From assembly GCA_017395935.1 (NCBI GenBank), contig JAFQNL010000022.1:1-63441 (forward strand): DNA of 63,441 bases. Reading direction: 5' to 3'. The notes beneath the pieces were generated by a model, which made no database searches, had not been told where the DNA came from, and saw only the letters and a list, made by a program, of their open reading frames with translations. Shown piece after piece: positions 53,204 through 63,441 of the stretch (positions are counted from its first letter, which is position 1; every line of letters begins with the position of its first letter). A program made the translations under genes and the position numbers. Source of the DNA: Oscillospiraceae bacterium (GTDB lineage Bacteria > Bacillota > Clostridia > Oscillospirales > Oscillospiraceae).

Positions 53204-56146
53204 TCACTTGCCCTTGTTCTGTTTACGGGCCTCGATGGCAGCGATCAGGCTGCGGACACGGATCTTAACAGCGCCCAGATTACTGATATCGTCGATCTTC
53301 AGCTGGGTATAGAGCTTGCCGCCTTCTTCCAGAATAGTCCGCATCTCGTCGCCGGTAATGGCGTCTACGCCGCAGCCGAAGGAGACCAGCTGAATCAGCT
53401 CCATGTCCTCCTGCGTGCAGACATACCGGGCAGCATTGTACATTCGGGCATGGTAGGTCCACTGGTTCAAAACAGTACGGCTCTGCTTGTCCATCTCATC
53501 GGAGATGGCGTCCTCGGTGATGAGGACGAAGCCAAATCCGGTAACCAGATCATTGATACCATGGTTGATCTCCGGATCCATATGATAGGGACGGCCGGCG
53601 ATAACCATAATCGGCATATCCTTTTCCCGGGCAATACGGACATACTCTCTGGCAGTCTCTTTCAGATCCTTCCGGTAGTCCTCATAGGCCTGATAGGCAA
53701 AGCGGACGGCGGCCACCGTCTCTTTTTTGGCAATTCCAAACTCCTTCAGGAAGTATTCACCGGCAAACTTCTCAAAGTCCTTGGGACGATGGAGACCAAA
53801 ATAGGGATGGAGGAAGCGCTTGTCCCGGAGCGCGGGAATATTGGTGGCAATCAAGTCGGGATAGTAGGCCACCACAGGGCAGTTGTAGTTCTTGTCACTG
53901 ATACCCTCATCAAAGTTGTAGCTCATGCAGGGATAGAAGATAGCAGTCAGGTTTTCTTCCATAAGTGCCTCCACATGGCCGTGGAGCAGCTTCGCCGGAT
54001 AGCAGACAGTATCGGAAGGGATTGTCCGCTGACCCTTAATGTAGAGCTTGCGGCTGGATTCAGGAGAGATAACCACTTCAAAGTTGAGCTTGGTAAAGAA
54101 CGCATACCAGAAAGGCAGGTTCTCGTACATATTCAGTCCGAAAGGCAGTCCGATCTTTCCGCGTGCTCCGGTACCTTCTCCTTTTCCGGTCATGGAGCGG
54201 AGCTTATTGTACTTGTACTTCATCAGATCAGGATTCTCCACCTTTTCCTTGCCCAGAGGCTTGGAGCAGCGGTTGCCGGAGATGAAGCGGCGGCCACCCT
54301 GGAAGGTATTCACCGTCAGTGCGCAGTGGTTGGTACAGCCATTGCAGGTGACCGGCCGGACGGCGTGGGTGAAGCCTTTCAGCTCCTCAGGGGTAAGAAT
54401 GGCAGAGCGTTCCAGGCCCAGCTCCCGGGCGGCCAGAGCGGCACCGAACGCACCCATAATACCGGCAATGGTCGGCCGGGTAACCTCCTTACCCAGTTCC
54501 AGCTCGAAGGAGCGCAGAACAGCGTCGTTATGGAAGGTGCCGCCCTGAACCACCACCTGCTTACCCAGATCATCGGCAGAGGCTGCACGAATAACCTTGT
54601 AGATAGCGTTCTTGACGATGGAAATGGAGAGGCCGGCGGAGATTGCCTCCACAGAGGCGCCCTCCTTCTGGGCTTGCTTGACCGAGGAGTTCATAAAGAC
54701 GGTGCAGCGGCTGCCCAGATTGACAGGATGCTCGGCGAAGAGACCCATCTTGGCAAAGTCGGCAATCTCATAGCCCAGAGCTCGAGCAAAGGTCTCAATG
54801 AAAGATCCGCAGCCGGAGGAACAGGCTTCGTTGAGCATAATAGAATCCACGGCGCCGTTACGGATCTTAAAGCACTTCATATCCTGACCGCCGATGTCAA
54901 TAATAAAGTCGACCGCAGGGTTAAAGTGAGCTGCCGCCTTGTAGTGGGCCATAGTTTCAACCAGACCCAGATCGCAGCCGAAGGCGTTCTTGATCAGGTC
55001 CTCACCGTAGCCAGTGACAGCGCTGCCCCGGATCTTGATATGATCTCCGCAAAGGCGATAGATCACATCCAGTTGCTCCCGGACAACAGCGACAGGGTTG
55101 CCCTTATTAGACTGATAATAGGTATAAAGCAGTCCGCCATCAGGGGCAATAAGAGCCAGCTTGGTAGTGGTGGAGCCGGCATCAATACCCAGATAGGCAT
55201 CGCCGGTATAGCCGGCAGGGTCAATCACAGGAGGATGATTGGCGTTGTGCCGGTCACAAAAGGCCTGATAGTCCGCCTCGGACTCAAAAAGAGGAGGCAT
55301 GGTATCTACCATGGTGGTATTGTCCACGCTCTCTTCCAGCTTTTTCAGCGCCTCGTCAAAGCCAATCGTCTCGTAGTCGGTAGCGCAAAGCGCGGCGCCC
55401 ATAGCGGCAAAGCAGTCGCCGTCCTCCGGGAAGATGGCATGCTCCTCGTCCAGCTTCAGGGTTTCTACAAAGCGCTCCCGGAGCCCCATGAGGAAGTGGA
55501 GGGGGCCGCCAAGGAAGACGATCTTACCCTTGAGCTCACGGCCCTGAGTCAGGCCGGCAATGGTCTGATCCACAACCGCCTGAAAGATGGAGGCTGCCAC
55601 GTCTTCCTTTCTGCCACCCTGATTCAGGATGGGCTGAATATCGCTCTTGGCAAAGACACCGCAGCGAGAAGCGATGGGGTAAAGCTTCTCATGTCTGAGT
55701 GCCAGTTTGTCCAGCTCATCGGCAGTAACATTCATCAGCGTGGCCATCTGGTCGATGAACGCGCCGGTACCGCCGGCGCAGGAGCCGTTCATTCGCTCCT
55801 CCAAAGCGCCGCCGAAGAAGATGATCTTAGCATCTTCACCGCCCAGCTCAATGACGGCGTCAGTGCCCGGGACATATGTATTGACAGCCGCGGCAGTGGC
55901 GTAGACTTCCTGAACGAAGTCAATGCCGCTGGCTTTGGAAACGCCCAGACCGGCAGAGCCGGTGATAACCATCTTTACCTGATGGCCGCCAAATTGGGGC
56001 GCAATGGAGCGAAGCGTCTCGCAGGTCCGCTCGCGAACCTTGGAAAAATGGCGCTCGTATGAACGGAAAAGAAGCTGATCCCTCTCGTCCAGAACCACTA
56101 CCTTGACAGTAGTGGAGCCAATATCGATACCTACACGATAGTTCAT
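53204..56146 (-). CDS. BadF/BadG-type CoA-dehydratase activase with two ATPase domains and a DUF2229-like region
   Basis: A 980-residue protein with two actin-fold activase repeats: GIDIGSTTVKVVVLDE at residues ~5-20 and GIDAGSTTTKLALIAPDG near 325. Each has an associated VITGSAG/VTGYGE phosphate loop and a paired-cysteine cluster region (GSCAGGTGAF, CSSGCGSFIE) where a 4Fe-4S cluster bridges the subunits. The C-terminal ~330 residues (PFGLNMYENLPFWYAFFTKLNFEVVISPESSRKLYIKG) match DUF2229. It should use ATP to drive electron transfer to a dehydratase. The start at 56146 follows GAGG at a normal distance; codons upstream to 56185 are not needed. Confidence 0.9.
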   Translation of the reverse strand: MNYRVGIDIGSTTVKVVVLDERDQLLFRSYERHFSKVRERTCETLRSIAPQFGGHQVKMVITGSAGLGVSKASGIDFVQEVYATAAAVNTYVPGTDAVIELGGEDAKIIFFGGALEERMNGSCAGGTGAFIDQMATLMNVTADELDKLALRHEKLYPIASRCGVFAKSDIQPILNQGGRKEDVAASIFQAVVDQTIAGLTQGRELKGKIVFLGGPLHFLMGLRERFVETLKLDEEHAIFPEDGDCFAAMGAALCATDYETIGFDEALKKLEESVDNTTMVDTMPPLFESEADYQAFCDRHNANHPPVIDPAGYTGDAYLGIDAGSTTTKLALIAPDGGLLYTYYQSNKGNPVAVVREQLDVIYRLCGDHIKIRGSAVTGYGEDLIKNAFGCDLGLVETMAHYKAAAHFNPAVDFIIDIGGQDMKCFKIRNGAVDSIMLNEACSSGCGSFIETFARALGYEIADFAKMGLFAEHPVNLGSRCTVFMNSSVKQAQKEGASVEAISAGLSISIVKNAIYKVIRAASADDLGKQVVVQGGTFHNDAVLRSFELELGKEVTRPTIAGIMGAFGAALAARELGLERSAILTPEELKGFTHAVRPVTCNGCTNHCALTVNTFQGGRRFISGNRCSKPLGKEKVENPDLMKYKYNKLRSMTGKGEGTGARGKIGLPFGLNMYENLPFWYAFFTKLNFEVVISPESSRKLYIKGQRTIPSDTVCYPAKLLHGHVEALMEENLTAIFYPCMSYNFDEGISDKNYNCPVVAYYPDLIATNIPALRDKRFLHPYFGLHRPKDFEKFAGEYFLKEFGIAKKETVAAVRFAYQAYEDYRKDLKETAREYVRIAREKDMPIMVIAGRPYHMDPEINHGINDLVTGFGFVLITEDAISDEMDKQSRTVLNQWTYHARMYNAARYVCTQEDMELIQLVSFGCGVDAITGDEMRTILEEGGKLYTQLKIDDISNLGAVKIRVRSLIAAIEARKQNKGK

Positions 56147-56200
56147 AGAATTACCTCGTTTTCTGCAAAAGGAGAAAGTGCGCATAAACGTTCACTGTCT

Positions 56201-57099: not shown

Positions 57100-57128
57100 G
57101 CCCGTACCGGAGTGTCTTCGGTACGGGC
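57100..57128 (+). terminator. Terminator of the phosphoribosyltransferase-like gene
   Basis: Ten-bp stem (57100-57109 with 57119-57128) followed by TTTTCTTTTCCC. Confidence 0.88.
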
Positions 57129-57246
57129 TTTTCTTTTCCCTTCAAGCAGCCGTTTTACATGTATTTTACATATTTTTTATATTCACATGGTAGCGTCACA
57201 TCTATGGTATGCGTTATCATGATGATGTCAATCTTTTTCATTTTTT

Positions 57247-57280
57247 CGGAGCGGACACCGGTTTTTTCAGATTCGCTCCG
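57247..57280 (+). promoter_or_regulatory. Leader hairpin ahead of sigI
   Basis: CGGAGCG (57247-57253) pairs with CGCTCCG (57274-57280) over a T-rich 20-nt loop, 35 bp upstream of the ATG. No T-run follows, so it may affect mRNA stability or translation. A plausible sigma-A-like promoter (TTTACA near 57155, TATATT near 57178) lies further upstream. Confidence 0.4.
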
Positions 57281-57314
57281 TATTCTATCTTTGTCAGGAG
57301 AAGGGGTGATAGAC

Positions 57315-58046
57315 ATGAAGGAAGAACACCGGATCGTATCCCTCGTTCAGGCTGCCCGACAGGATATGCGCAAAGCTGACGAGCTGATCCGCGCCTATCT
57401 ACCTTTCATCCGGTCTGAAGCTGCAAAATTTCTTGCCCGTATCTGCACCGATCAGGACGACGAATATAGCATCGCCATGATCGCTTTCTATGAGGCAATC
57501 AACAACTATAATAAGGAACGGGGAAGCTTTCTCAATTATGCTGCCATGCTTATCCGCAGCCGTCTTATTGATTACCAGCGCAAAGAGGCCCGCCATCAAG
57601 GACACCTGTCTCTTGACGAGCCATCCGGCGAAGAGGATGACCGCTCTCTAATGGACAGCATCGCCGACCACAGGGATCTCATAGGAGAGGCCTCTAATCT
57701 GGAGGCAACTGAGCAGGAGATCCGCGAGTTGGGTGAGGTAATGAAAGGCTTTGGCGTTAGCTTTACCGACGTGTCTGCCAACGCTCCCCGTCAGGATCGG
57801 ACTATGGAAGCCTGCGGAAAGGCAATCCGCTACGCCGCGGCCCATAAAGAGATCCTTGACGAGCTGCTGCGGACGAAAAAACTACCTTTGGCCCGGTTGG
57901 CTCTGGGCTCCGGTGTCGAACGCAAAACACTGGAGCGGCACAGAAAGTACATCCTCGTCATGCTCCTGATCCTGACCAACGGTTACGAGATCATTCGAGG
58001 ACACCTTTATCATGTCCTCAGAAAGAAAGGAGGTGGGTCGGCATGA
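57315..58046 (+). CDS. sigI: RNA polymerase sigma factor SigI
   Basis: A 243-residue sigma-70-type factor of the SigI group. Region 2 reads DDEYSIAMIAFYEAINNYNKERGSFLNYAAMLIRSRLIDYQRKE, and the SigI C-terminal domain KEILDELLRTKKLPLARLALGSGVERKTLERHRKYILVMLLILTNGYEIIRGHL provides -35 recognition. SigI factors answer to outer-surface signals relayed by RsgI anti-sigma factors, in Bacillus subtilis heat stress and in Clostridium thermocellum polysaccharide sensing. The start has AGGAGAAGGGG upstream. It overlaps rsgI by 4 bases, so the two are made in balance. Confidence 0.95.
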   Translation: MKEEHRIVSLVQAARQDMRKADELIRAYLPFIRSEAAKFLARICTDQDDEYSIAMIAFYEAINNYNKERGSFLNYAAMLIRSRLIDYQRKEARHQGHLSLDEPSGEEDDRSLMDSIADHRDLIGEASNLEATEQEIRELGEVMKGFGVSFTDVSANAPRQDRTMEACGKAIRYAAAHKEILDELLRTKKLPLARLALGSGVERKTLERHRKYILVMLLILTNGYEIIRGHLYHVLRKKGGGSA

Positions 58047-58999
58047 AGTATATGGTCATGGAATGCGGTACAAGCTATGCTGTCGTACTGGACGAAGAAG
58101 GTCAATTCCGAAACGTAGTCAACCGGGGATACCAGGTTGGCCAAACCGTGACTCAAGTCTTCCCGCTGCCCGAGCTGCAGAAACCGGAAAAGAGCGGCAG
58201 TCGTACCCTCATCCGGACTCTGACCTCTCTGGCTGCCTGTCTGGCCCTTGTGATCACCGCCTTCTTCCACTTCCAATCCGTGCCCTTCGCCTCGGTCTAT
58301 CTGTCCATCAACCCCGAGGTTCGGATCGATATTGACCGACATGATACGGTTGTCGGTCTGGCCGGCGTCAACGAAGACGGAGCAAACCTCATCGCGGAGT
58401 ATGACTTCCAGAGAAAGCATTTGGATCTGGTCATGGATGAGCTGGTAGATCTGGCCATCGAGATGGGATATCTCCACGAGGGCGGCACCATCACCCTGAT
58501 GCTGGACGGCAATAACGAGTGGATCGTCACCCATGGCGACCAGCTCAGCCATCACCTTCAGGACTATATGACGCAGAAACTAAGTGTCACAATTGAGGTG
58601 GGCGCCAAAGGCTCGGAGTCTGATTACGGTGCTGTCTATCACGATATTGCTATCCCCGTTTACGGTGAGAGCGACTACGGTGAGAGCAACTATGACGATG
58701 ACGACCAAGACGACGGCGCTTCCGGTTATGACGATGACGACCGGGACGATGGCGCTTCCGGTTATGACGATGACGACCGGGACGATGGCATTACCGACTA
58801 CGATTCTGACAGCGATGTCGACAGTTCTGGTTATGATTCCGACCAGGACGATGACGACCGGGATGACAGCGCTTCCGCCTATGACGATGACGACCGGAAT
58901 GACGGCATCACCGACTACGATTCAGACAACGATGACGACAGTTCTGGCTATGATTCCGACCAGGACGATGATGGCGATGACGATGATGACGATGACTGA
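58043..58999 (+). CDS. rsgI: Anti-sigma factor RsgI with highly acidic outer repeat tail
   Basis: A 318-residue single-pass membrane protein. Residues 1-50 form the cytoplasmic SigI-binding domain (KYMVMECGTSYAVVLDEEGQF), residues ~55-77 a membrane helix, and SVYLSINPEVRIDID contains the Asn90-Pro91 junction where RsgI proteins self-cleave outside the membrane. The outer module continues to about residue 190 and ends in a tail (about 208-318) of YDDDDRDDGASG and YDSDxDDDSSG repeats, almost entirely Asp, Gly, Ser and Tyr. In C. thermocellum this place is taken by carbohydrate-binding domains. The tail is probably a metal, polyamine or surface-charge sensor. Start ATG at 58043 has AAAGGAGGTG. 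Confidence 0.9.
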   Translation: MKYMVMECGTSYAVVLDEEGQFRNVVNRGYQVGQTVTQVFPLPELQKPEKSGSRTLIRTLTSLAACLALVITAFFHFQSVPFASVYLSINPEVRIDIDRHDTVVGLAGVNEDGANLIAEYDFQRKHLDLVMDELVDLAIEMGYLHEGGTITLMLDGNNEWIVTHGDQLSHHLQDYMTQKLSVTIEVGAKGSESDYGAVYHDIAIPVYGESDYGESNYDDDDQDDGASGYDDDDRDDGASGYDDDDRDDGITDYDSDSDVDSSGYDSDQDDDDRDDSASAYDDDDRNDGITDYDSDNDDDSSGYDSDQDDDGDDDDDDD

Positions 59000-59007
59000 G
59001 CGCATCG

Positions 59008-59064
59008 AAAAAAAATTTTGAAAGATTTCCCTTTCGACCCCGATTTCATCCTCCACGCTGCGTA
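59008..59064 (+). promoter_or_regulatory. Candidate SigI-dependent promoter of the lipoprotein operon
   Basis: An A8 tract (59008-59015) is followed by CGACCCCGATT with ACCCC at 59037-59041, and CGTA at 59061-59064, 19 nt further on. SigI promoters are described with an upstream A-tract, an ACCC(CC) -35 and a CGWA -10. The spacing is the weak point. No TTGACA/TATAAT-type sigma-A promoter is seen in this 175-bp gap. Confidence 0.5.
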
Positions 59065-59174
59065 ATCTGATACATAAGCTTCCAGAGAGGCAGACAGCAA
59101 AAGCCTCCTGAGGCGGGACGTCCGATCCAATTCACCACTAACTATCATTCATTTAAATAAAAAGGAGAAATAAA

Positions 59175-60173
59175 ATGAAGCACATGAAATCTATTTTTGG
59201 AGTTATTCTCTCACTGGTCCTCTCTCTCTCTCTCGTGGCCTGTGGCCAGGGTGTGACTGCTCCTTCCGGCGAGACGGCTCTGGCAGAAGGCGGTGTCCTC
59301 TACCTCAAGGTCAACCCCGAGATCGCCGTGGCTTATGACGCCGACGGCAACGTTACCTCCGTTAACAGCCGCAACGCTGACGCCTCCGCTCTGCTGGAAG
59401 GATACACCGGTTTTGAAGGCAAGTCCACCCGCGAAGTTGTCTCCGAGCTGGTCACTCTGATCGGAGATGCCGGTTATTTCGTGGAAGAGATTGAAGGCGA
59501 AAAGCGGCAGATCACCATCGAGATTGAGTCCGGCTCTGTTCTTCCCAGCGAGACCTTCCTGGATGAGGTAGTAGCCGACGTCAAGCTCTGCATCAGCACC
59601 AACGATTGGTCCAACCCCATCGCTCTGGAAGGCACCACCATCTACGGTATGTCCGACTACGTTGATACCGACTACGGTCCCAACAATGACGGCGTCACCG
59701 ACTTCGGTCCCACCGACTACAATGATACCGACTACGGTCCCAACAATGACGGCGTCACCGACTTCGGTCCCACCGACTACAATGATACCGACTATGGCCC
59801 CAACAATGACGGCGTCACCGACTTTGGTCCCACCGATTACGACGATACCGACTACGGCCCCAACAATGACGGCGTCACCGACTTCGGTCCCACCGACTAC
59901 AATGATACCGACTACGGCCCCAACAATGACGGCGTCACCGACTATGACGACACCGACTACGGCCCCAACAACGACGGTGTCACCGACTATGACGACACCG
60001 ACTACGGCCCCAACAACGACGGTGTCACCGACTACGACGATACCGACTACGGCCCCAACAACGACGGCGTCACCGACTACGACAAGGCTTCCGACTACGA
60101 CAAGGCTTCCGACTACGGAAACTCTGGCTATGACAAGTCTTCTGACTACGGAGACTCTGACTATGACGATTAA
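59175..60173 (+). CDS. Lipoprotein with RsgI-type outer domain and DTDYGPNNDGVTD repeats
   Basis: A 332-residue protein. MKHMKSIFGVILSLVLSLSLVAC is a lipoprotein signal with Cys23 lipidated. Residues ~40-155 match the outer domain of RsgI: VLYLKVNPEIAVAYDADGNV with Asn47-Pro48, then NSRNADASALLEGYTGF, without any sigma-binding domain. From about residue 163 come tandem repeats: DTDYGPNNDGVTDFGPTDYN (20 residues, four or so copies), then DTDYGPNNDGVTDYD (15 residues, three or four copies) and a DYDKAS tail. NNDGVTD resembles the calcium loops of thrombospondin type 3 repeats. The ATG has AAAAAGGAGAA. Its last bases overlap the VTC gene. Confidence 0.85.
   Translation: MKHMKSIFGVILSLVLSLSLVACGQGVTAPSGETALAEGGVLYLKVNPEIAVAYDADGNVTSVNSRNADASALLEGYTGFEGKSTREVVSELVTLIGDAGYFVEEIEGEKRQITIEIESGSVLPSETFLDEVVADVKLCISTNDWSNPIALEGTTIYGMSDYVDTDYGPNNDGVTDFGPTDYNDTDYGPNNDGVTDFGPTDYNDTDYGPNNDGVTDFGPTDYDDTDYGPNNDGVTDFGPTDYNDTDYGPNNDGVTDYDDTDYGPNNDGVTDYDDTDYGPNNDGVTDYDDTDYGPNNDGVTDYDKASDYDKASDYGNSGYDKSSDYGDSDYDD
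59664..60081 (+). repeat. Tandem 60-bp then 45-bp coding repeats
   Basis: Four or so nearly identical 60-bp units (59664 to about 59940), then three to four 45-bp units that lack the 15-bp FGPTD portion. Codons are mostly identical between units, which points to recent expansion by slippage or unequal exchange. Confidence 0.88.
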
Positions 60174-60861
60174 AGAGAAAGCTCCCCTTCGGTTTCGCCA
60201 TGAATGGAAGCATCTCATCTCTCCTCAGGACGATCTCTTAATCAGCCAGCGGCTGAGAAAACTCTTCCCCCATGATCCCCATGCTGGCTCACACGGTTTC
60301 TACCGTGTGAGCAGCCTTTATTTTGACACTCCTTATGATAAGGCTCTACGGGAAAAGGTGGACGGCGTAAACCGGCGAGAGAAGTTCCGCCTGCGCCACT
60401 ACAACGATGATCTGTCCTTTATTCGTCTGGAGCGAAAGATGAAGTCCTCTGGACTCTGCGCAAAACAGAGTGCCAGACTCTCATTGGAAGAAACCCGGCG
60501 TCTTCTGGAAGGAGATTATGACTTTCTCCTTCAGCGGGAAGAGCCTCTGCTGATCGATTTCTATAGCAAACTCAAGGGACAGATGCTCCGGCCTCGGACG
60601 CTGGTTGTCTATGACCGCGAGCCCTTCCTCTATGCGCCCGGAAATGTCCGGATCACCTTGGACAGAAATCTTCGCACCGGTCTCGCTTCGACCGACTTTC
60701 TCTCTCCTCCACCCTTCCCCGCTCCGGTTTCTGACGGATTGACGGTTCTGGAGGTTAAATACGACAATTTTCTGCCTGAGATCGTTCAAATGACAGTACA
60801 GACGCCTGACAGACGTGCAGGCGCTTATTCCAAATACGCCGTCTGCCGGCGTTACGACTGA
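60163..60861 (+). CDS. VTC-domain polyphosphate polymerase-like protein
   Basis: A 232-residue protein with the tunnel fold of the VTC domain. FRHEWKHLISPQDDLLISQRLRKLF is the N-terminal Lys/Arg-rich strand, SLYFDTPYDKALREKVDGVNRREKFRLRHYN and LERKMKSSGLCAKQSARL provide the phosphate-binding basic residues, VRITLDRNLRTG and LTVLEVKYDNFLPEIV the acidic metal ligands. In yeast, VTC polymerises phosphate from ATP; in bacteria small VTC proteins of this kind occur next to DUF4956 and CotH. The start at 60163 overlaps the lipoprotein gene by 11 bases; the open frame further up is a shadow of the repeats. Confidence 0.87.
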   Translation: MTIKEKAPLRFRHEWKHLISPQDDLLISQRLRKLFPHDPHAGSHGFYRVSSLYFDTPYDKALREKVDGVNRREKFRLRHYNDDLSFIRLERKMKSSGLCAKQSARLSLEETRRLLEGDYDFLLQREEPLLIDFYSKLKGQMLRPRTLVVYDREPFLYAPGNVRITLDRNLRTGLASTDFLSPPPFPAPVSDGLTVLEVKYDNFLPEIVQMTVQTPDRRAGAYSKYAVCRRYD

Positions 60862-60884
60862 CAAGTCGAAAAGGAGGTTCCCTT

Positions 60885-61565
60885 ATGACGGCATTTACCT
60901 TTCAGGATATTTTTAAGTCCAGTTTTCTGGAACAGGCAAACGCTATCTCTCTGTTGGATATGGTGCTGACGCTGCTGCTGTCCTTTGCGCTGGGCCTGTT
61001 CATCTTCTTTATTTACCGCAAATGCTATTCAGGTGTCATGTATTCCGCCAGCTTTGGAGTGACTCTGATTGCCCTGACTATGATCACCGCACTGCTTATT
61101 CTGGCTGTGACCAGCAATATCGTTCTCTCTCTGGGTATGGTGGGCGCTCTCTCCATCGTCAGATTCCGGACCGCCATCAAAGACCCATCAGATATTGCCT
61201 TTCTCTTCTGGGCGATTGCTGCAGGCATCGTGCTGGCCGCAGGTTTTCTCCCGCTGGCCGTCGTCGGAAGTCTTCTGATCGGCCTGATGATGCTCTTTTT
61301 CTCTTCCCGGGACAGCAGCGACCGGCCTTATATCCTTATTCTTCACTGCGACAGTCCTGCTTCGGAGCAGGCTGCCCGGAAATATGTCAGTCAGCAGGTG
61401 AAGAAGCTTTCTCTCAAGAGCAAGAGCGTATCTCCCAATCTCATCGAGCTCAACTATGAGATTCGACTGAACGAGGGAGTTACCGACTTTATCAATGAGT
61501 TGGCTGCCATGGATGGCGTGAGCCATACTGTCATGGTCTCCTATAACGGAGACTATATGAGCTAA
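60885..61565 (+). CDS. DUF4956-family membrane protein
   Basis: A 226-residue protein with four membrane helices in the first ~145 residues (LTLLLSFALGLFIFFIYRKCY, ASFGVTLIALTMITALLILAVTS, LGMVGALSIVRFRTAIKDPSDIAFLFWAIAAG) and a cytoplasmic alpha/beta domain afterwards. GMVGALSIVRFRTAIKDPSD is the DUF4956 hallmark. The family almost always lies beside VTC genes and is likely the membrane channel or scaffold for polyphosphate made by VTC. It is preceded by AAAAGGAGG and ends 4 bases before the CotH gene. Confidence 0.88.
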   Translation: MTAFTFQDIFKSSFLEQANAISLLDMVLTLLLSFALGLFIFFIYRKCYSGVMYSASFGVTLIALTMITALLILAVTSNIVLSLGMVGALSIVRFRTAIKDPSDIAFLFWAIAAGIVLAAGFLPLAVVGSLLIGLMMLFFSSRDSSDRPYILILHCDSPASEQAARKYVSQQVKKLSLKSKSVSPNLIELNYEIRLNEGVTDFINELAAMDGVSHTVMVSYNGDYMS

Positions 61566-61569
61566 CGCT

Positions 61570-62964
61570 ATGATCCTCCACAAATGGATTGACCGGCTCT
61601 GTGCCGGCGTTATGGCATTAGCTGTGATCGCCGCGCTGCTGTTTATGAACGGTGAGCGGTTGGGTATTACTCCCTCCAGCAGTGCGCCGGGCTACGAGAG
61701 GAGGCTCTTTGACCCCTCCTATGTCCATCAGATCGACATCATAATAGACGATTGGCCGGGATTTCTGGCTGAGGCCTCAGAGGAGAATTACCATTCCTGC
61801 ACGCTGGTCATTGACGGAGAGCAGTTTTCCAACGTAGGCCTCCGGGTCAAGGGTAACAACTCCAGGCGGCTGACAGAAAAATATGGCCACGAGCGATACA
61901 GCCTGAAGGTAGAGTTCGATCAATACCAGTACTCCAGTTACTATGGGCTGGATAAATTCTCGCTGGATTCCTCCTTTCAGGACAACAGCTATCTGAAAAG
62001 CTGGATCGTCTATGACATGATGGAGTATATGGATGTGCCCACACCTCTGCGCAGCTACACCTGGGTCCGGGTAAATGGTCAGGACTGGGGGCTTTTCCTG
62101 GCCATCGAAGAGCCGGAAGAGGCCTTCGCCCGGAGAAATTTCGGTCGCAATCACGGCCAGCTCTATAAGCCAGACTATAGAAGACTGGATGATGAGAACG
62201 CAGACGTAGCTCTGAAGTACATTGATGACAATCCGGAAAGCTATGACAACATTTTCCGAAACGCCAAATTCAAGCCCACAGAAGAGGATATGGCCCGGCT
62301 GATCCGGGCCCTCGAGATTCTTTCCACCGGCGAAGAATTGGAGCAGGCAGTCAATGTGGAAGAAGTTTTACGCTACTTTACCGTTCAGGTCTTTGTCGTC
62401 AATCTTGACAGCTATCTGGGCAAGACAGGACACAATTACTTTCTTTACGAAGAGGACGGCAAGCTTTCCATTCTCCCCTGGGACTACAATCTGGCTTTTG
62501 CCACCTATTCGCTTGGGATGCCAGATCCTATCAACGACGCCGAGCTCTACGTCAACTACCCAATAAACACCCCCGCCAGCGGCGAAGTTATGAGAAACCG
62601 GCCGCTATATCACAATCTGATGAAGAATAACACCATCTTCCATCGGTATCACCAGCTCTTTGATCTGCTCATCTCCAGTTACTTTGAAAGCGGGCATTTT
62701 GAAGAAATGGTGACCGAGACCAGAGCGCTCATTGATCCCTACGTCCAGAAGGATCCTACTGCCTTCTGCAGCTTTGAAGATTATCAGCTGGCCGCTGACA
62801 CCATCACCCGGTTCTGCCTCCTCCGGGCCGAGAGTGTCCGGGGCCAGTTGGAGGGAACTATTCCAGCCACCATTGCCGCTCAGGCAAATGACAAGAGTTC
62901 CTTTATTGATGCCTCCTCAATTTGGCTGCCGGATATAGGTGAGATCGCGGATTTGGAAGACTAA
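61570..62964 (+). CDS. CotH-family secreted/membrane-anchored protein kinase
   Basis: A 464-residue protein with an uncleaved signal anchor (residues ~10-28, LCAGVMALAVIAALLFM). GLRVKGNNSRRLTEKYGHERYSLKVEFDQY provides the N-lobe lysine region. NSYLKSWIVYDMMEYMDVPTPLRSYTWVRVNGQDWGLFLAIEEPEEAFARRNF is the CotH core, and LSILPWDYNLAFATY carries the DxN-type metal site. CotH in Bacillus is an atypical kinase that phosphorylates spore coat proteins. Here the outside domain could phosphorylate the repeat proteins of the locus; that is inference. There is no clear ribosome site: the ATG follows the DUF4956 stop by 4 bases, suggesting coupling. Confidence 0.88.
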   Translation: MILHKWIDRLCAGVMALAVIAALLFMNGERLGITPSSSAPGYERRLFDPSYVHQIDIIIDDWPGFLAEASEENYHSCTLVIDGEQFSNVGLRVKGNNSRRLTEKYGHERYSLKVEFDQYQYSSYYGLDKFSLDSSFQDNSYLKSWIVYDMMEYMDVPTPLRSYTWVRVNGQDWGLFLAIEEPEEAFARRNFGRNHGQLYKPDYRRLDDENADVALKYIDDNPESYDNIFRNAKFKPTEEDMARLIRALEILSTGEELEQAVNVEEVLRYFTVQVFVVNLDSYLGKTGHNYFLYEEDGKLSILPWDYNLAFATYSLGMPDPINDAELYVNYPINTPASGEVMRNRPLYHNLMKNNTIFHRYHQLFDLLISSYFESGHFEEMVTETRALIDPYVQKDPTAFCSFEDYQLAADTITRFCLLRAESVRGQLEGTIPATIAAQANDKSSFIDASSIWLPDIGEIADLED

Positions 62965-63038
62965 ACAGCCTAACAGACAGAACAAAAGCCCCCAGCCGTT
63001 TCCGTGATGTTCTTAACGGAGAATTAGTGGGTGGTATG

Positions 63039-63068
63039 TAACCGGAAGGTGTAAAAACCTTCCGGTTA
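63039..63068. terminator. Terminator between the CotH operon and the recombinase
   Basis: Twelve-bp perfect stem (63039-63050 with 63057-63068) followed on the plus strand by TTACTTTTT, close to the recombinase stop codon. It can end both convergent transcripts. Confidence 0.78.
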
Positions 63069-63075
63069 TTACTTT

Positions 63076-63441
63076 TTATGCTGTTTTCGCTGTGGACCGT
63101 GCGAGAACTTCCATTGCGGGGACACCTTCCTGTTCGGGAAGTCGGAAGGCGTAGTGTATGCGGATCGGGTTTCCTGCTGTTCGTGAGTATTTCTCGAACT
63201 TTTCGTACACCTCTATCCTGCGGATGAATACTCGCAGCAGTTCGGGTGTCAGCTCCGTCATCTTAATATACTGCTTGGCATTGCGGATAAATTCTTGTAT
63301 GCATTGATCTCGCATATCCATTCTTTCGATGCTCTCCGCAAGCTCCTGCAACTCCCGTTTCTTCTCCGCCTGCTCCTGTTCATATCCGTTTGCCATCGAG
63401 TCGTAGCGTTCGGGAGTGATTCTTCCCGATACTCTGTCCTC
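63076..63441 (-). CDS. Large serine recombinase, C-terminal part (cut by window edge)
   Basis: The frame is open through the right edge; the visible 121 residues begin EDRVSGRITPERYDSMANGYEQEQ and run through a coiled, charged stretch AEKKRELQELAESIERMD. They end with TELTPELLRVFIRRIEVYEKF ... IRIHYAFRLPEQEG. This is the C-terminal domain (DUF4368 type) of large serine site-specific recombinases such as those of Tn4451/Tn916-like elements in clostridia. The catalytic N-terminal domain lies beyond the window. It probably excises or integrates a mobile element whose left end is near here. Confidence 0.85.
   Translation of the reverse strand, partial: EDRVSGRITPERYDSMANGYEQEQAEKKRELQELAESIERMDMRDQCIQEFIRNAKQYIKMTELTPELLRVFIRRIEVYEKFEKYSRTAGNPIRIHYAFRLPEQEGVPAMEVLARSTAKTA

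Follow-up and report, generated by a model that had tools for sequence, protein, structure and literature searches.

We consider it moderately probable that six adjacent genes of an Oscillospiraceae bacterium from the gut form a dedicated SigI circuit, one that would express a kinase at the surface together with a likely substrate for it and a machinery for polyphosphate; that such a circuit is real, conserved, and apparently dedicated to itself is strongly indicated at the level of promoters and synteny. The genes lie on the plus strand of contig JAFQNL010000022.1 (assembly GCA_017395935.1), of which positions 1–63,441, a stretch of 63,441 nucleotides hereafter called the window, were studied. 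They encode a sigma-I-type factor of 243 amino acids (aa) (sigI, 57315–58046), an anti-sigma factor (rsgI, 58043–58999), a lipoprotein (59175–60173), a VTC-domain protein that is a putative polyphosphate polymerase (60163–60861), a DUF4956 membrane protein (60885–61565), and a CotH-family kinase (61570–62964), the last three of which are called the trio below. The six open reading frames (ORFs) and their spacing, as described in a first-pass annotation of the window, were confirmed at every coordinate: sigI and rsgI overlap by 4 bases, a gap of 175 bases separates rsgI from the lipoprotein gene, the lipoprotein and VTC genes overlap by 11 bases, and gaps of 23 and 4 bases precede the DUF4956 and CotH genes, respectively. 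The same annotation had proposed that SigI switches on a surface system, and this is supported at the sequence level by candidate promoters 5′ of both units of the locus and by matches in relatives that fall without exception (27 of 27) at SigI loci.

These promoters share one motif, GACCCC, a run of T or A, and CGTA 19 bases after GACCCC, which stands 5′ of sigI and of the lipoprotein gene and, by eye, recurs in relatives. The site of the sigI-rsgI unit, at 57254–57286 (+), reads GACACC-N19-CGTATTCT, with one mismatch to the pattern, and that of the lipoprotein-VTC-DUF4956-CotH unit, at 59036–59068 (+), reads GACCCC-N19-CGTAATCT, with none; no sigma-70-like site was listed on the plus strand of the gap 5′ of the lipoprotein gene. 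The sigI reading frame is open farther upstream, with a mechanical start at 57159, and 57315 is favored as its start because of the promoter site at 57254–57286 and of the relatives. When the window's own genome (2.07 Mb, 97% complete) was scanned at ≤3 mismatches, two matches were found, both at this locus (0 and 1 mismatch). The 27 matches mentioned above come from 15 relatives picked for carrying this SigI and scanned at ≤2 mismatches, a scan in which a reversed control pattern gave one match. All but one of the 27 precede sigI or the lipoprotein gene, and the distance of the remaining one (C89 of genome G079) to a second sigI copy equals that of its twin on C55. With a score of ≥15 of 19 as the threshold, the site is present in 34 of 37 upstream regions of lipoprotein genes and in 0 of 58 upstream regions of VTC genes from loci without SigI, some of these controls being short owing to contig ends. 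The same threshold is reached in 31 of 55 sigI upstream regions, that is, 31 of the 40 belonging to this clade and 0 of the 15 of distant SigI genes; about 0.1% of mononucleotide shuffles score as high, and a spacing of 19 nucleotides scores best. The three lipoprotein upstream regions under the threshold (L114, L135, and L166) were all retained in the count, and in L114 and L135 the ORF starts were probably placed too early. Because sites with an A-run, which occur at several sigI genes, escape the two-mismatch scan, the claim of a regulon is limited to this pattern. Control of both units of the locus by predicted SigI-type promoters is well supported by these results. Two sites scoring ≥15 were also seen upstream of the lipoprotein gene in 10 of the 37 cases (L119, L124, L125, L128, L130, L133, L156, L159, L168, and L170).

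The gene order is conserved as well, recurring in many gut bacteria related to this one. SigI and DUF4956 were sought in the same 250 genomes of the family, the window's own included, and the stretches found were annotated with purpose-built profiles. The full six-gene order is collinear in nine other family genomes (L114, L117, L119, L122, L124, L125, L128, L130, and L133) and split across contigs in two (G088 and G265). A scan of named genomes with a DUF4956 alignment returned at least 587 relatives, and the full order was present in 13 of the best 80 loci, which by record title include Lachnospiraceae, Oscillospiraceae, and Erysipelotrichia and among whose named carriers are Mordavella massiliensis An420c, Flavonifractor An306, and Lachnoclostridium An14; the family and named sets may overlap in genomes, so that the two counts are not additive. 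In three more named loci (L157, in which CotH is cut off, L175, and L179), sigI-rsgI and the lipoprotein unit have divergent orientations, and in L188 the contig starts just 5′ of the lipoprotein gene. Because it is repeated in nine further genomes of the family and at 13 named loci, the six-gene order is more than chance, and an order unique to the window genome, which would have told against the first-pass interpretation, is rejected. Simple vertical inheritance within the genus is unlikely, since G025, G027, and G002 have VTC-DUF4956 with a beta-helix protein instead (the Pfam family Cthe_2159 is shown for that of G025). In a quick tree, the DUF4956 of the window has its nearest neighbors at six-gene loci from other genera and families, and the DUF4956 proteins of G025, G027, and G002 fall in a large group. 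This group is formed by 61 rows, none from SigI loci, as one well-supported branch, with the rows from SigI loci outside it. Four loci outside the large branch that appear as CotH without SigI (L160, L165, L169, and L171) have their VTC gene starting 120–248 bases from a contig end, and their upstream region is therefore not visible. Elsewhere in the genus, two genomes (G001 and G031) carry SigI-RsgI-lipoprotein ending inside the lipoprotein gene at a contig end, with no VTC found in either genome, and in G028 the VTC gene is truncated by a contig end.

Judged by its domains, the lipoprotein is a paralogue of the outer part of RsgI. The window RsgI combines RsgI_N (25.6 bits for a cut-off of 25, a marginal score), one transmembrane segment, RsgI_M (68.1 bits, cut-off 25.3) with the motif INPE, and an acidic tail with [S/T]xY repeats. 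The lipoprotein has a lipobox, an RsgI_M domain that had gone unnoticed in the first-pass annotation (45.7 bits, cut-off 25.3) with the motif VNPE, and a tail of DxTDYGPNNDGVTD-type repeats, and a profile of 13 lipoproteins matches the solved RsgI 8t9n (2e-5) in an alignment that starts at Asn-Pro. Autocleavage of RsgI is reported to take place in RsgI_M (PMC12203970). Of 38 lipoproteins, 37 have Asn-Pro (36 matched the pattern and L158 was read by eye; L118 is without it), and so do 39 of 40 RsgI proteins (35 by pattern and four by eye), the remaining one, L126, being truncated by its contig. The lipoprotein at the head of the second operon is thus a tethered copy of the outer part of the sensor. 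This shared domain would also suit a feedback decoy that titrates the signal or the protease when SigI is active, the trio being a later passenger downstream of a SigI promoter. SigI-RsgI-lipoprotein does occur without the trio in six loci (two of them at a contig end, with no VTC found in those genomes), the order lipoprotein-SigI-RsgI occurs in two loci, and a promoter precedes the lipoprotein gene in seven of the eight trio-less loci (L135 fails, its ORF start being probably wrong). A decoy, however, leaves unexplained the arrival of the [S/T]xY repeats with the trio described below, and it equally fails to account for locus L193, in which an RsgI_M lipoprotein and an RsgI_M anti-sigma factor accompany an ECF-type sigma factor and the trio; we consider it unlikely. 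Locus L193 (4546–10065), from Massilimicrobiota timonensis An13, is also of interest in its own right: the lipoprotein has TNY repeats, the anti-sigma factor is without RsgI_N, and a sigma factor of a different class is thus found with a lipoprotein and a trio of the same kinds.

The dedicated circuit gains a candidate kinase substrate from the repeats of these tails. The lipoprotein tails consist of DDTDYGPNxDG[VI]TDY units or of simpler SDY or SNY units, and the motif counted was [ST][DNGAS][YF]. The window RsgI tail has nine [S/T]xY motifs versus 1.3 in shuffles, and the window lipoprotein has 26 versus 2.5. Where the trio is present, a class that takes in the split or cut loci L115, L131, L132, L157, and L188, lipoprotein tails hold 9–28 motifs (median 17, n = 29) and RsgI tails 3–15 (median 6, n = 28); where it is absent, lipoprotein tails hold 0–2 (n = 8) and RsgI tails 0 (n = 9), shuffled tails giving 0–3.7 on average. 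Loci L120, L126, and L129 were excluded from this count, their contigs ending too early. In L120, with no trio visible before the contig end, the RsgI tail has seven motifs, and the same genome has an unassigned trio at the start of another contig (L266, whose DUF4956 fragment was already in the family scan), with [S/T]DY codons directly 5′ of VTC, a join of the two contigs being no more than a possibility. Trio status changes four times on the SigI tree, and in both pairs on supported branches the repeats change in the same direction as the trio. A pairing of CotH with repeat proteins as substrates is suggested by this covariation, which lends support to the first-pass proposal that acidic repeat proteins are phosphorylated. 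The repeat tails might alternatively belong to a structural surface coat, in which acidic repeats bind calcium or self-assemble, VTC-DUF4956 supply polyphosphate as a further polyanion, and the target of CotH is some other, unlinked protein. Asp and Glu make up 15–60% of the C-terminal 170 aa of the lipoproteins, a stretch that is periodic, the repeats by eye recall the D-x-D-x-D-G repeats that bind calcium, and B. subtilis CotH is described as working on separate coat proteins (PMC7821199). Tails from loci without the trio nonetheless stay acidic (21–60%, eight loci) while losing the [S/T]xY motif, so that acidity alone does not track CotH; since, moreover, Pfam (E up to 0.1) reported no calcium-repeat family in the lipoprotein, we give such a coat a low probability. 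When the lipoprotein repeat region was searched against its own genome, itself alone was returned. For CotH proteins from outside SigI loci, the presence of such repeats in cis was rejected, as 0–2 [S/T]xY motifs were found in the 21 tails with any length (34 ORFs listed). A second link between SigI and VTC is seen in a distant SigI lineage, which adjoins VTC-DUF4956 (L137–L140) or VTC alone (L145) in varying gene order; no lipoprotein or CotH was found at these loci, and their RsgI proteins are without [S/T]xY repeats.

The window CotH (195.9 bits, cut-off 23.8), the single one found in its genome, begins with an N-terminal signal anchor and aligns with the solved CotH 5jd9 (1.4e-13), the segment HNYxLY...PWDY included. 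The motif PWD[YFL][ND] is present in 52 of 55 CotH proteins; in B. subtilis CotH, D228 is reported to be required for activity (PMC7821199). CotH ORFs at SigI loci measure 454–528 aa, with one of 652 aa and several starts placed too early, and 16 of the 34 outside SigI loci end in a hydrophobic stretch. Judging from the basic N-terminus, the kinase domain probably lies outside the cytoplasm. The N-terminal 33 residues are common to 55 CotH and 32 beta-helix proteins with a mean identity of 45%, the next 15 residues having 6%. Against a hand-typed consensus of this anchor, beta-helix proteins match on average 21.5 of the 33 positions (lowest 13) and CotH proteins 18.8 (lowest 10), versus 6.6 (highest 12) for 248 other hydrophobic N-termini. 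The sequences thus show an ectodomain swapped across VTC-DUF4956 operons while the anchor is kept, and for this reason the anchor may bind a common partner, DUF4956 or VTC. Beta-helix proteins of the Cthe_2159 type that share one anchor with CotH in VTC-DUF4956 operons are seen at L024 (6555–8591, minus strand) and as third genes of L156–L235.

The VTC gene product is likely to be a polyphosphate polymerase, judging from its family. Pfam reports the VTC domain alone (118 bits, cut-off 23), and the family profile matches the yeast Vtc4 structure 3g3q (4.5e-5). Single-sequence searches of RsgI and of VTC against the PDB gave no match, whereas family profiles of the lipoprotein and of VTC did. 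If instead VTC were a triphosphate-processing enzyme, the trio might be a general envelope-phosphate module recruited by SigI, a reading to which the weakness of the Vtc4 match and the number of best DUF4956 loci showing no SigI (62 of 80) both lend some weight. We regard it as improbable, given a Pfam score far above the cut-off, a set of R, K, and E columns that do not vary among 13 sequences, which we take to be tunnel-type catalytic residues, and a genome in which PPK1 was not found (PPK2 was not searched for). In DUF4956 (47.1 bits, cut-off 30.6), two arginines, R93 and R95, are shared by all of 100 sequences compared, and VTC adjoins this family, with CotH or a beta-helix protein, in 77 of the best 80 loci. 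In yeast, the making of polyphosphate and its transfer across the membrane are coupled (PMC9911596), and the yeast VTC complex resembles the pair in joining a tunnel-domain polymerase to a membrane partner; it differs in that the window DUF4956 is without a detected solved relative and the window protein has the VTC domain alone in Pfam. Polyphosphate export through DUF4956 would thus be speculative, an analogy to yeast VTC. As Spo0A is present in the genome, a role in spores is possible.

Taken as one circuit, these parts would work as follows. RsgI would hold SigI until an envelope signal arrives, upon which the autocleaving RsgI_M would lead, as known for RsgI elsewhere, to regulated proteolysis that sets SigI free. 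The factor would then transcribe its own operon and, from the second predicted promoter, the lipoprotein-VTC-DUF4956-CotH unit. The lipoprotein is a membrane-tethered copy of the RsgI outer part, both bearing [S/T]-x-Tyr repeats, whose Ser and Thr residues anchored CotH would phosphorylate, if the covariation is a guide. VTC would make polyphosphate, and DUF4956 might, from what is known of the families, pass it to the membrane or keep it there beside CotH. Because RsgI has the same kind of repeats, modification could, speculatively, feed back on the sensor. In a bolder version, which we think quite unlikely, CotH would work outside the cell, where ATP is scarce, with polyphosphate made by VTC and passed through DUF4956 as its phosphoryl donor, and the [S/T]xY repeats of the tethered lipoprotein and of the RsgI tail would become hyperphosphorylated. 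If this is true, SigI would switch on a kinase that acts on its own anti-sigma sensor, closing an autonomous feedback loop of phosphorylation outside the cytoplasm.

Several observations weigh against the dedicated circuit. With regard to transcription, a sigma-70-like site, TTTACA-18-TATATT, stands at 57154–57183, 5′ of sigI, and the VTC gene contains both a weaker site of this type and a terminator-like stem (60287–60312). In NCBIfam the top models for the sigma factor are SigI, none shown at its cut-off (spore_sigI 161.6 vs. 185), and the factor is for this reason called divergent SigI-type; in line with a sigma-I factor, Pfam does find region 2 (Sigma70_r2, 44.6 bits, cut-off 24) and reports no region-4 family at E up to 0.1. 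The promoter pattern was built from these very loci after they had been viewed, its absence elsewhere therefore being the informative part, and in the window's own genome the reversed control gave three matches at ≤3 mismatches. The tail motif was likewise defined after the tails had been viewed, several rows of the covariation are near-copies (such as L161/L162), and two pairs on supported branches among four changes of trio status are too few for significance. Among the 32 genomes of its genus, the whole set occurs in the window species alone. Neither SigI, RsgI, nor lipoprotein is seen on either strand in 62 of the best 80 DUF4956 loci, so that VTC-DUF4956 works without SigI elsewhere; four of these 62, which fall in the six-gene part of the tree, are truncated by contig ends. 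For DUF4956, no solved relative was detected.

Known systems resemble the locus in part. In the open-licence literature, no paper was recognized as describing a SigI-RsgI-lipoprotein-VTC-DUF4956-CotH system. The first-pass annotation knew of no report linking SigI with the trio, a statement overtaken by the NELoc-2 table of Clostridium perfringens (2010, PMC2879425) and by the SigI6 promoter of cseP in Clostridium thermocellum (PMC4711584). As in the window, SigI, VTC, and CotH are tabulated side by side in NELoc-2, the row running from SigI through a hypothetical protein of 348 aa (predicted at the cell wall), VTC, and a membrane protein of 226 aa to a resolvase, a second VTC, a membrane protein of 222 aa, and CotH (PMC2879425). 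Unlike the window, NELoc-2 has VTC and its neighbor doubled around the resolvase, with no lipoprotein listed between; the membrane proteins are annotated as tubulin/FtsZ, and the available parts of that paper discuss tubulin and CotH and propose no SigI-controlled system. Going by the gene table alone, we would guess the 348-aa protein to be RsgI and both membrane proteins to be DUF4956. The C. thermocellum regulons share with the window the SigI-RsgI pair and promoters with CCC and an A-tract in the −35 and CGWA in the −10 (PMC6056542, PMC4711584, PMC10575876), and elements of this published plan (PMC6056542, PMC10575876), CCC, an A/T-tract, and CGWA, are present by sequence at 57254–57286 and 59036–59068. 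When tested with a reporter in B. subtilis, the promoter of cseP, a gene for a CotH-dockerin protein, was driven by SigI6 (PMC4711584). As described in those papers, however, C. thermocellum SigI factors control dispersed cellulosome genes, whereas sites of the window pattern were found at its own two operons only, and a further difference is the RsgI-like lipoprotein with VTC-DUF4956. The same three families as in the trio, CotH, a polyphosphate polymerase, and DUF4956, accompany the Pel operons of Gram-positive bacteria as accessory genes (PMC7112168, PMC12345266), an arrangement that the authors of PMC12345266 did not find outside Pel loci; unlike that trio, the window trio adjoins SigI-RsgI-lipoprotein, and no pel genes (pelDEADAFG) or DUF4832 are among the window's immediate neighbors, the rest of the window and the genome not having been searched for Pel. 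Spore-coat phosphorylation in the CotH-CotB-CotG system (PMC7821199) is alike in pairing a CotH-family kinase with a repeat-protein substrate, and the window CotH differs from the spore protein in its membrane anchor, its SigI-type promoter, and the acidic [S/T]xY repeats. DUF4956 relatives occur in at least 587 places, and the literature found gives no substrate or signal for them. The locus offers a candidate signal input, SigI/RsgI, and, beside the kinase, a candidate substrate in the [S/T]xY lipoprotein and RsgI too, with a predicted regulon so small that it is readily testable. If the circuit is as proposed, it would represent a bacterial surface-phosphoprotein system under an anti-sigma factor that bears the substrate's own repeats, with a testable answer to how an extracellular kinase is fueled.

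As to the borders of the locus, T-tailed stem-loops lie at 57100–57128, 5′ of sigI, and at 63038–63069 (+), 3′ of CotH, where the terminator-like call is a consensus match alone; together with the stem in the VTC gene they belong to 10 such sites found in the scan, compared with 4.9 in shuffles. Upstream of the region, a large CoA-enzyme activase (BcrAD_BadFG and DUF2229) is encoded at 53207–56185 on the minus strand, and another immediate neighbor is an ORF with a sub-threshold UPRTase match alone. At the window edge, just beyond the terminator-like site of the operon, 63079–63441 on the minus strand encode the C-terminal part of a DUF4368 recombinase, which fits horizontal movement or a mobile past of the locus.

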